From: an uncultured Gammaproteobacteria bacterium
GTDB lineage: Bacteria > Pseudomonadota > Gammaproteobacteria > Eutrophobiales > Eutrophobiaceae
Reading direction: 5' to 3'
NCBI GenBank assembly: GCA_938084745.1
Contig: CALKEZ010000017.1
Span: 1-64,000, forward strand
Length of the DNA: 64,000 nt
Shown here in pieces: positions 18,050-25,196 of this stretch. Positions within the stretch are counted from its first letter, which is position 1. Each line of letters starts with the position of its first letter. A program made the translations under genes and the position numbers. Under the pieces are notes generated by a model. It saw only the letters and a program-made list of their open reading frames with translations, made no database searches and was not told the DNA's origin.

Positions 18050-18099
18050 TTTCTTAATATAGTTGTAGTTAGTAATCGTATTATATAGCATGTCATCAA

Positions 18100-18168
18100 G
18101 CTAGGGGTGCCTTTATGGGCTGAGATTGACCCTTGAACCTGATCTGGTTAGTACAAGCGTAGGGAAGC
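18100..18168 (+). promoter_or_regulatory. TPP riboswitch (THI element)
   Basis: The conserved parts are all present: GGGGTGCC at the 5' stem, CTGAGA (18120-18125), AACCTGATCTGG (18136-18147), and GCGTAGGGAAG near 18157-18167. A small stem GCAAG/CTTGC follows immediately and may belong to the expression platform. There is no U-run, so control of ribosome access to thiC is more likely than termination. It shuts off thiamine synthesis when TPP is plentiful. Confidence 0.95.
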
Positions 18169-18209
18169 AAGCATCTTGCCATTGGCGCTCTATTACTATT
18201 TCTTTATAA

Positions 18210-20105
<1,896 letters not shown>

Positions 20106-20141: not shown

Positions 20142-21443
20142 ATGAAACTCGATAAACTTATCGAGCAGACAGCAGAGCCGGATTTGACCTCAAACCGGCT
20201 ACAAGCCCTACTCGGAGATGAACAAGCAACACGAATCATTAATTCGTTTTCAGATGATCAGAAGTCGGGATTAATCCAGATACTGGGGACATCCCGATTC
20301 TTATCCAATTTCATGCAACGCAATCCTGATGCGATCGCATTAATCGGCACACCTTACACGGCATCAACGATAAAAAAAGGCGCTGACGTCAATGAATTGC
20401 GCCTCCACAAATACCGATCCCTGTTGCAAATTACCTGGATGGATGTGTGCAACACGTGTCCTTATGAAACGGTATTAACCCGCCTGAGTCATTTGGCTGA
20501 TTCAATTCTGCAACGTGCTACTTTATTAGTCGAAAAAGAATCTAGTGCATTTGCAGCCAACGTTAGATCTGATCTGGCAGTAATGGCATTGGGCAAGTTG
20601 GGTGCTAGTGAACTGAATTATAGTTCTGATGTTGATCTGATATTTATCGTTCGTAATGCCGACGAGAAGCTACGTCATGCTATGCATGAACATTACACGC
20701 ACTACATAAGACGTTTCTGTCGTTTGCTGGAAGAGAAAACGGAGGATGGCTTTTTGTATCGCGTCGATCTGAATTTACGCCCCTGGGGAAGAAGTGCGCC
20801 TTTGGTCTTTTCTGTGGATGAAAACGAAGATTACTATCAGGCCTCAAAGGAAGCATGGGAACGTATTGCCTGGTTGCGCGGTCGTTGTGTTGCAGGGTCA
20901 GAGGAACTGGGACATGACATGCTTAGCCGTATACAACCGTTTGTGTTTCATAAAAACTTAAGTACAGACGACATAGATCGTTTTCTGAAAATAAAAAGTG
21001 ATATGGCTGAACAACGCATAAAAGAGGGCCACTGGAATGTGAAACTGGGTGAGGGCGGGATCAGGGATATTGAATTTTTTGTACATATGCTACAGATTGT
21101 CAATGGTGCACATCATCCTGAATTACGCATTACCAATACAATTGACCTGTTAGAACAATTCACAGGCTTCGGTTTTATCAATGAGGAAGAACATCAAGAA
21201 CTCAGGGACAGCTATCTTTTTTTACGCAGGCTGGAAAATCGTTTACAAATGTTTGATGAACAACAAACACACCAATTGCCAAATGACCGTACTTTGCTCG
21301 GTAAAATAGCAAAAATGATGGGTTATGCAGGCAACAGTATTGACGAAGCCTATGCTGGCTTTAGTGATGATTTGATTTTGTATCAGCACATTGCAAAAAA
21401 ATATTTTGATAAATTACTAACTGCAAACACAGCATCTGTATGA
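20142..21443 (+). CDS. glnE: GlnE N-terminal half: glutamine synthetase deadenylylase (AR) domain as a separate protein
   Basis: 433 aa, matching in length and motifs the N-terminal adenylyl-removing half of E. coli GlnE (about 440 of 946 aa). The nucleotidyltransferase site is intact: Gly151-x11-Asp163-x-Asp165 in ALGKLGASELNYSSDVDLIF, then DGFLYRVDLNLRPWG and KLGEGGIRDIEFFVHML, then the helical SYLFLRRLENRLQMFDEQQ. It ends at a TGA overlapping the ATG of the second half (ATGA at 21440-21443). It should remove AMP from glutamine synthetase under PII control. The family is normally one bifunctional protein. Confidence 0.9.
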   Translation: MKLDKLIEQTAEPDLTSNRLQALLGDEQATRIINSFSDDQKSGLIQILGTSRFLSNFMQRNPDAIALIGTPYTASTIKKGADVNELRLHKYRSLLQITWMDVCNTCPYETVLTRLSHLADSILQRATLLVEKESSAFAANVRSDLAVMALGKLGASELNYSSDVDLIFIVRNADEKLRHAMHEHYTHYIRRFCRLLEEKTEDGFLYRVDLNLRPWGRSAPLVFSVDENEDYYQASKEAWERIAWLRGRCVAGSEELGHDMLSRIQPFVFHKNLSTDDIDRFLKIKSDMAEQRIKEGHWNVKLGEGGIRDIEFFVHMLQIVNGAHHPELRITNTIDLLEQFTGFGFINEEEHQELRDSYLFLRRLENRLQMFDEQQTHQLPNDRTLLGKIAKMMGYAGNSIDEAYAGFSDDLILYQHIAKKYFDKLLTANTASV

Positions 21444-22762
21444 ACTACAGTTCAGAAATTCGTTACGCTTTATCACAAGCCTGGCATATCGATGCGGCTG
21501 AAAACAGTTTTAAACGCTGGCTGGAATTATTGCATCAGGAAAGCTGGAAGATGTCTGATGAGTCGCTGCTGCGGCTTATTGCGTTATTTGGTTCAAGTTG
21601 GTACTTCACCCGGTTTTGTTTTTACCGTGGCAATAATATTATCCCTTTATTCGATAAAGATCGTCAGAGCCTTGCTGTTGTGCAATCAAGACTGGATGAG
21701 TTTACGACTGCATTCCCCGAATCTTCTTTAGATGTAGCCATTGAACAATTAAGGCTTAATAAAAACGAATTAATGTTGTCTGTTCTCCTATTACATCTCG
21801 CGAACATTATTGACCAGGAACAGGCTGAGGCATTGCTCACACAATTGGCGGAAAAGGTCCTGATCTCTATCTACAGACTGTTTGATATTGAACAGCCTGG
21901 TGCTGTTCAGTGTGCCATCTTGGCCATGGGTCGTTTTGCCGGTAACGAAATGAACTATGGTTCTGATCTCGACTTGATTTTTATTGAGAAAATTCTAAGC
22001 TCCGGACATGAGGCAGTTACTCTAAACAAGATCAGGAAAATGTTGCGTTATATCGCAACCAACGATCCATCTGGCACTTTGTATGAAATAGATACGCGAT
22101 TAAGACCCCATGGCAGTTCAGGCGTGCTTGTCACACCATTGGATAGCTTTATACATTTTCATCAAACTGAACGAGAAGCCTGGGAACGACAAATGATGAC
22201 GCGCTGTCGAGTCATTGTTGGTGATTCAGCGTTAGCCAAACAAATTATTAATGCAATCAATATTAATATTTACAAACACCATGAAAAATCCTATCTAGCC
22301 CGGGAAATAGTAACAACACGTTTGTTAGTGCAACAGGAATTAGCCGGCGGTAGTGATAAAATTGACCTTAAGCGAGGTTATGGCGGCATTATGGATGTTG
22401 ACTTCCTGACCCATTTTTTGCAGCTCGCGTATGGCACTGAAAATCCGCAGTTAAGAATCACAAGCACACGAGCGATATTAAAAGCCTCTTCAAAACTGGG
22501 TGTGATTAATGCCAGTACAGCAGCAATGTTATTGAGCGCTTATGACTTTTATAAAAAAAGTGAGTCTGCGCTACGTGTTTTCGATATGAAATCAATCAGC
22601 AGTGTTAATAAAGACACAAAATCATTATTGCCGCTGGCACGGGCATCGGGCTTTATCGAAACTGAGCCGGAGAAGTCTGTTGCTGACTATCTTGCGAAAT
22701 TGATGGATTACCGGGAGCAAGTCAGGCAGACATTTGAATTAATTATGCACGCTGCAATTTAG
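21440..22762 (+). CDS. glnE: GlnE C-terminal half: glutamine synthetase adenylyltransferase (AT) domain as a separate protein
   Basis: 440 aa. Its own nucleotidyltransferase site is Gly164-x11-Asp176-x-Asp178 in AMGRFAGNEMNYGSDLDLIF. GTLYEIDTRLRPHGSSGVLV, EREAWERQMMTRCRV and KRGYGGIMDVDFLTHFLQL follow, matching the C-terminal adenylylating half of E. coli GlnE. The segment before the catalytic motif is about 160 aa, shorter than the region between the E. coli domains, so part of the central linker is missing. Translation is coupled through ATGA. The 3' end overlaps convergent putP by 20 bp. Confidence 0.88.
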   Translation: MNYSSEIRYALSQAWHIDAAENSFKRWLELLHQESWKMSDESLLRLIALFGSSWYFTRFCFYRGNNIIPLFDKDRQSLAVVQSRLDEFTTAFPESSLDVAIEQLRLNKNELMLSVLLLHLANIIDQEQAEALLTQLAEKVLISIYRLFDIEQPGAVQCAILAMGRFAGNEMNYGSDLDLIFIEKILSSGHEAVTLNKIRKMLRYIATNDPSGTLYEIDTRLRPHGSSGVLVTPLDSFIHFHQTEREAWERQMMTRCRVIVGDSALAKQIINAININIYKHHEKSYLAREIVTTRLLVQQELAGGSDKIDLKRGYGGIMDVDFLTHFLQLAYGTENPQLRITSTRAILKASSKLGVINASTAAMLLSAYDFYKKSESALRVFDMKSISSVNKDTKSLLPLARASGFIETEPEKSVADYLAKLMDYREQVRQTFELIMHAAI

Positions 22763-24197: not shown

Positions 24198-25196
24198 TTA
24201 TATGGTTTCATGACAGGGATAAAATTTTTCCAGGGGGACATGTTGCAGAATAATGTTTTTACAAAATGTCAGCATGTCATTACGAATATCGGCCGGGTAA
24301 CCGATGCTATTATTTTCTTCAATTAACGGCGATGAAAAAAGTTTTTCATCGGGATACAGCTTTTCCAGTTTTCGATAGTAATCTTTTGGTAAACGAAATC
24401 CGCCCAGGCTAACTGAATGCACCAGATCGGGATTAAGTTTTGAAAAGAGGGTGTTGAATAGAGTGCTGTATTCTTCAATATAATCCCGAGTGTAGATTAA
24501 GGGGTCAAATCGCAATCCTATTGTCCAGCCAGCATTCTGCAAATCTATAATCGCCTGCAAACGTTTTTCAACAGGTGGCGCTTTATGTTCCAATGCGGTT
24601 GCTATTTTGTCTGGCGTAAAACTAAATGCGATCACACAATTTTTAATTGGCTCGCGCTTTAGCAAGCTTCTTGTCTGTGTGCTCTTGGTGCGTAATTCGA
24701 GTAAGGACTGCGGATTTTTTTCAAAAAAGGGCAGGAAGGTCGTTGTGAAATGAGTTACCGGCTCAAGCGCAAGACTATCGCAATCATAACCGGAGAAAAA
24801 ATGAACCGGGTCGTTATTATGCTGATTTAATACAGATTGCATCTCGTCGATGAAATCTTCGTAATTCACAAATAGAACGTAGTGTGCCGATTGAAACATG
24901 CCTTGCAAAAAACAGTAACGACAGTCATAAAGGCAATTCAACATATGTGAAAAATAATAATTATGCTCAGCGCCGATGCCGTATTGTTTCGGCGTCGACA
25001 GTACCAGCCCCTTATGTTTTTTCGCCAGTATCAGCGCGGGTTTTTTCTTTTGTAATCTGAAATTTTGTGACTTGCGATTAAAGATCTCACCATAGCGTTC
25101 ACAAGCTATTATTTCAGCGTCAGGAAAGCGTTCAAGAATAGCCCGGCTGCGGGGGTGTTCCGCAATCTCTTCTTCTATGTATATAGTGCTAATCAT
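24198..25196 (-). CDS. Spore photoproduct lyase-like radical SAM protein
   Basis: 332 aa. The radical SAM cluster motif Cx3Cx2C is Cys88, Cys92 and Cys95 in NCLYDCRYCFLQG. The N-terminal YIEEEIAEHPRSRAILERFP and the C-terminal layout match the SPL family, which repairs UV thymine dimers in spores. This organism gives no sign of sporulating, so the substrate here is open. By my own alignment to Bacillus SPL (EASCTSDIVGIDHLTH), the H-donor cysteine position is Tyr, with a Cys two residues on (SGYDCDSLALEPVTH). It overlaps the nucleosidase-like gene by 8 bp. Confidence 0.85.
   Translation of the reverse strand: MISTIYIEEEIAEHPRSRAILERFPDAEIIACERYGEIFNRKSQNFRLQKKKPALILAKKHKGLVLSTPKQYGIGAEHNYYFSHMLNCLYDCRYCFLQGMFQSAHYVLFVNYEDFIDEMQSVLNQHNNDPVHFFSGYDCDSLALEPVTHFTTTFLPFFEKNPQSLLELRTKSTQTRSLLKREPIKNCVIAFSFTPDKIATALEHKAPPVEKRLQAIIDLQNAGWTIGLRFDPLIYTRDYIEEYSTLFNTLFSKLNPDLVHSVSLGGFRLPKDYYRKLEKLYPDEKLFSSPLIEENNSIGYPADIRNDMLTFCKNIILQHVPLEKFYPCHETI

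Follow-up and report, generated by a model that had tools for sequence, protein, structure and literature searches.

The glnE gene in the window (the whole 64,000-nucleotide stretch of DNA that was analysed) is divided into two genes. This fission is real, old and conserved, and it is not a sequencing error. The window comes from a little-known branch of Gammaproteobacteria. Textbooks present GlnE as a single bacterial enzyme with two heads, which turns glutamine synthetase (GS) off and on. It is also the founding example of opposite reactions housed in one enzyme, where PII, PII-UMP, glutamine and 2-oxoglutarate are weighed across the domains. The locus very probably encodes a natural two-polypeptide GlnE which arose by one fission before the families that carry it diverged; its probably coupled halves, the adenylyl-removing (AR) half followed by the adenylyl-transferring (AT) half, would act downstream of PII and GlnD.

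The two halves of GlnE

The features of the locus are collected in Table 1. The frames of 433 and 440 codons with an ATGA join given in the preliminary description were confirmed, and each contains the G-x11-DxD site and the GGI(R/M)D(I/V)(E/D)F element reported there. Both halves match the Pfam families GlnE and GlnD_UR_UTase. They match GlnE models far better than GlnD models, and against models of the bifunctional enzyme the AR half aligns to the first half and the AT half to the second. The locus thus has the two nucleotidyltransferase modules of a GlnE in AR-AT order, each with its catalytic motif and each followed by a GlnD_UR_UTase helical domain, but on two polypeptides; the single chain with a central regulatory region is replaced by separate ORFs which are together roughly 55-80 aa shorter. 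No second glnE, the possibility of which had been raised earlier, was found in the assembly (2.2 Mb, 87% complete). The 3' end of the AT gene and a convergent sodium:solute symporter gene overlap by 20 nt (22743-22762). A gammaproteobacterial gene for a spore-photoproduct-lyase-family protein (Pfam SPL) lies at 24198-25196, and stays near glnE in many relatives.

Table 1. Features of the divided glnE locus (positions in the window)
Feature	Position	Strand	Basis
TPP riboswitch aptamer, upstream of thiC	18093..18182	+	Rfam RF00059, 59.7 bits against a gathering threshold of 54.3
thiC, putative leading gene of a thiC-AR-AT transcription unit	18225..20105	+	Pfam ThiC_Rad_SAM
AR gene, predicted stand-alone adenylyl-removing half of GlnE, 433 aa	20142..21443	+	Pfam, PDB, HMM, AF2 model
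AR site G151-x11-D163-x-D165, with the AR-specific Asn (E. coli position 169)	20592..20636	+	
AR GGIRDIEF element	21054..21077	+	Sequence and conservation
ATGA overlap of AT start codon and AR stop codon	21440..21443	+	Junction survey
AT gene, predicted adenylyl-transferring half of GlnE as a separate protein with a shortened N-terminus, 440 aa	21440..22762	+	
AT site G164-x11-D176-x-D178 (GRFAGNEMNYGSDLD), derived signature	21929..21973	+	Lineage alignment
AT GGIMDVDF element	22382..22405	+	Alignment

The first frame had been described as the adenylyl-removing half, and by its sequence it is a canonical one. It scores 192 bits against the E. coli AR structure (1v4a) and 87 bits against the AT structure (3k7d); with HMMs of canonical GlnE built in this analysis, the scores are 308 (AR) and 202 bits (AT). 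Its AF2 model (pLDDT 90.0) superimposes on 1v4a with Z 40.9 and rmsd 2.5 over 402 residues. Asn169 of the E. coli enzyme is essential for AR activity (PMC4454073), and Asn is present at this position in all 36 lineage sequences scored.

The second frame also bears out its earlier assignment, as the adenylyl-transferring half, although its site is derived. It scores 98 bits against 3k7d and 82 against 1v4a, and 202 bits with the canonical AT model against 164 with the AR model. This preference of 38 bits lies within a range of 0.8-42 bits among the AT halves of the lineage. The AF2 model (pLDDT 90.9) aligns to residues 505-945 of 3k7d with Z 37.6 and rmsd 3.8 over 405 residues, and fits the AR structure 1v4a slightly better (Z 39.7, rmsd 2.8, 411 residues). 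Weaker matches to DrrA/SidM (Z 21-22), aminoglycoside nucleotidyltransferases and HEPN/MNT proteins were taken as shared fold only. At the position equivalent to 169 (E. coli 697), Gly is usual in AT domains (PMC4454073). It is replaced in 35/36 lineage sequences (N16, T9, I6, S3, H1; G1 retains it); the window has Asn. As Asn varies in the AT half and is invariant in the AR half, it is poor evidence for a second AR enzyme. The canonical motif GKLGGxELGYxSDLDL has become GR[MLFI]AGxEM..GSDLDLIF, with the canonical Lys changed to Arg; this Arg (35/36), the Ala (34/36) and the Met (36/36) are conserved in the lineage. The catalytic Asp residues (DxD) and the RLRPHG and GGxMDxDF elements are invariant.

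The second protein could alternatively have lost or changed its catalysis and become a regulator of the AR half, for example a sensor of PII or glutamine. The derived yet conserved signature, the lost class Gly, the weak preference for AT over AR models and the structural drift would all suit such a role, as would the missing segment 449-504 of the AT crystal domain. Against it, the catalytic elements listed above are invariant, the gene is under purifying selection, and an AR enzyme without any AT has nothing to remove. Furthermore, AT domains of other bacteria are able to adenylylate GS on their own, as engineered truncations show (PMC9249168). A second half turned regulator is therefore improbable, and the likely reading, from position, gene order and HMM and PDB similarity, is an AT with a remodelled site. 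The catalytic assignment of both halves is likely on the same kind of evidence. The first protein would most likely strip AMP from type-I GS by phosphorolysis, and the second would most likely add AMP at the conserved Tyr397 of GS.

A degenerate GlnE-like nucleotidyltransferase also occurs outside glnE. In genus g15 (L258:2146-4599), an 817-aa protein combines a fatty-acid-desaturase-type (AlkB-like) domain with such a module and GlnD_UR_UTase; similar matches of 808-817 aa are found in G062, G064 and G066.

GlnE consists of two homologous domains with a central regulatory domain between them, and the balance of its activities is set by PII and PII-UMP (PMC12409994, review). The lineage is compact in this region. 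From GGIRDIEF in AR to SDLDL in AT there are about 295-305 aa, where canonical GlnE of the class has 363-389, which agrees with the earlier statement that part of the central linker is absent. Roughly 55-80 residues are lacking. Because the AT model aligns to 3k7d only from residue 505, some 55 residues at the start of the AT crystal domain (segment 449-504), along with the linker, have no counterpart. The missing segment appears from the alignments to fall in the central regulatory region; its exact borders are approximate. With this stretch between the domains gone, the two halves may plausibly have ceased to signal to each other. The halves could form a complex, and any communication would now take place by contact or through PII and GS, not within one chain.

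Junctions and history of the split

The window's order contains one family, in which 53 species were searched; almost every one that carries GlnE has two adjacent frames, each of about 430-530 aa. Junctions were read base by base at 24 loci, including that of the window. The gene is split at the same place in 21 of these (in one of them, G024, the assembly is interrupted by a gap close to the junction) and fused in G012, G025 and G036. The split junctions consist of an ATGA overlap, a TAATG, or stop and start codons a few bases apart; in some relatives an in-frame stop is followed by a spacer, and each of the three frame offsets is represented. Since junction type and offset vary in this way, a shared frameshift or recoding signal is ruled out. 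Where it could be computed, dN/dS is about 0.06-0.2 for both genes. Synonymous change thus far exceeds non-synonymous change in each, and both halves are maintained proteins.

The preliminary description had suggested that the two activities may be separately translated and regulated. Separate translation is well supported. Separate regulation is less so, because junctions that overlap or touch suggest a single transcript with coupled translation more than independent control; the adjacent halves are probably translated in this manner through their overlapping or near-touching stop and start codons.

A programmed frameshift or stop read-through might also yield a fused AR-AT protein, besides or instead of the two proteins. 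An ATGA overlap permits ribosome handover and true fusions did evolve in two clades, but relatives vary in junction sequence, frame offset and spacing, so that no recoding signal is conserved, and none is visible at the window junction; recoding is very unlikely. Still less credible is an ordinary bifunctional glnE broken by a frameshift or assembly error: single-base differences do join and break genes in MAGs (in G067, set aside as a third re-fusion, one base in a poly-A run joins a frame that is split in its congeners, and L300 is broken inside the AT domain), but 21 of 24 loci share one break point with coherent stop/start junctions in three frame offsets, and the compact linker is present in fused relatives too.

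The split spans three GTDB families. Outside the window's order it is also seen in family f95, whose order comprises four species, and in family f136, where G187 has it. The break had been placed at the domain boundary, and it holds that place across the three families. The surrounding gene order is also conserved among them, with TolC-like, rhodanese and PCMT genes on one side and thiC, AR and AT following; none of 13 canonical gammaproteobacterial glnE loci showed this neighbourhood.

In AR+AT trees (quick trees with SH-aLRT), the whole lineage forms one clade, well apart from canonical GlnE. G190, whose GlnE is fused but highly divergent, was excluded from the last tree on account of its long branch. 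Mapping the split and fused states onto the trees requires three changes: a single fission, then re-fusion both in genus g15 (six species) and in G012. When all split sequences were constrained to one clade without the fused ones, the constraint was rejected (AU p = 0.014). The preferred explanation is one old basal fission, followed by two re-fusions which retained the short linker. A bifunctional AR-AT gene would have been broken once at the domain boundary, before the families diverged, with the loss of the linker and central residues described above. Re-fusion fits better than an unbroken ancestor because the fused relatives have the same short linker. A continuous frame together with a longer linker in close relatives had been named earlier as grounds for doubt; some do have a continuous frame, but their linker is equally short and they fall within the split clade. 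The G012 re-fusion is less certain than that of g15, since a primitively fused G012 costs only about one extra change. Given two re-fused clades, being split is not obligatory.

Other apparent separations of AR and AT modules were seen. A Desulfobacterales chromosome (G286; L301/L302) has an AR-bearing and an AT-bearing GlnE gene separated by about 1.4 Mb; both of them also contain additional partial domain sequence. In a Nitrospinota MAG (L298:1-3685), an AR-like gene and a GlnE/AT-like gene are divergently transcribed, and the latter has a weak N-terminal ACT-like match; this is possibly another natural separation. In a Myxococcaceae assembly (L133:1777-4808), an AR frame of 563 aa overlaps an AT frame of 473 aa, which may reflect an independent split or a frameshift. 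L300 was rejected as a comparable case because of where its break sits. It should be noted that the class-wide survey covers the best-scoring matches listed, with low-scoring genomes checked individually, and so is no measure of how rare splits are.

Cascade partners and the possible link to thiC

Both proteins would act downstream of the PII/GlnD cascade. The window's genome encodes a full-length GlnD elsewhere, and its two PII proteins keep the T-loop tyrosine (PII Tyr51); GlnD is present in most relatives too. The adenylylation tyrosine of type-I GS (Tyr397) is kept in KDLYDL, KDMYDL and close variants in those glnE-bearing relatives whose gene was read. No GS gene was detected in the window's own MAG. 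Most of the region which holds glnA in congeners is missing from this assembly, the one match being to a gene next to it, and the absence is probably an assembly gap.

Where glnE is absent, type-I GS tends to be absent as well: both are present in 32 cases, neither in nine, glnE only in two and GS only in nine (Fisher p = 0.0005, uncorrected for relatedness). The alternative enzyme was read in a single species that lacks glnE; it has 337 aa and is GSII-like by its sequence. Two species without glnE, G011 (L228) and G009 (L229), have a type-I GS with altered motifs both in the active site (GETGSGMH, GDTGSGMH) and in the adenylylation loop (KNLYV).

Between the end of thiC and the start of AR there are 36 nt in the window and -1 to 174 nt in relatives. 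No terminator-like site was found in the window's gap. The two genes overlap in G014 and G029, which suggests a thiC-glnE operon. A TPP riboswitch precedes thiC at nine of the 12 related loci scanned; thiC is absent beside glnE in a few relatives. Thus thiC, AR and AT may be co-transcribed, which would make GS modification depend to some extent on thiamine, transcription partly following the upstream riboswitch-controlled gene.

A broader proposition is that GS adenylylation throughout this gammaproteobacterial lineage is carried out by two coupled enzymes, with the signalling region gone, the AT site remodelled and the genes in a thiamine-riboswitch operon. As a whole this is doubtful. If true, GS control would be wired unlike the bicyclic cascade of E. 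coli, including a link to thiamine status.

Comparison with known systems

In the open-access literature searched, no account of a naturally split AR/AT pair came to light; such absence is no proof. The lineage offers natural stand-alone AR and AT proteins, and is a clean case of gene fission and subsequent re-fusion in a signalling enzyme. The conserved split and its re-fused sister clades amount to a ready-made experiment on the role of intramolecular coupling and the central region.

The closest known system is the bifunctional GlnE (GS-ATase), such as E. coli GlnE (946 aa; 1v4a for AR, 3k7d for AT). The window pair shares with it the AR-then-AT order, two nucleotidyltransferase folds with catalytic Asp residues, the GGI(R/x)D(I/V)(E/D)F elements, the AR-specific Asn169, and occurrence with PII, GlnD and the Tyr397 of type-I GS. 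It differs in being two polypeptides, in lacking roughly 55-80 aa of the linker and central region, in its derived AT signature without the class Gly, and in lying downstream of a thiC gene that has a TPP riboswitch. Engineered unidirectional adenylyltransferases (uAT), in which GlnE is cut down to its AT domain (PMC9249168), likewise have AT as a separate protein, and uAT adenylylates GS; these are artificial and have no AR partner, whereas the window locus keeps both halves as an adjacent pair. GlnD, the PII uridylyltransferase/uridylyl-removing enzyme, is a related nucleotidyltransferase with a GlnD_UR_UTase helical domain. The window pair, however, matches GlnE models far better, and a separate GlnD is encoded elsewhere in the genome.
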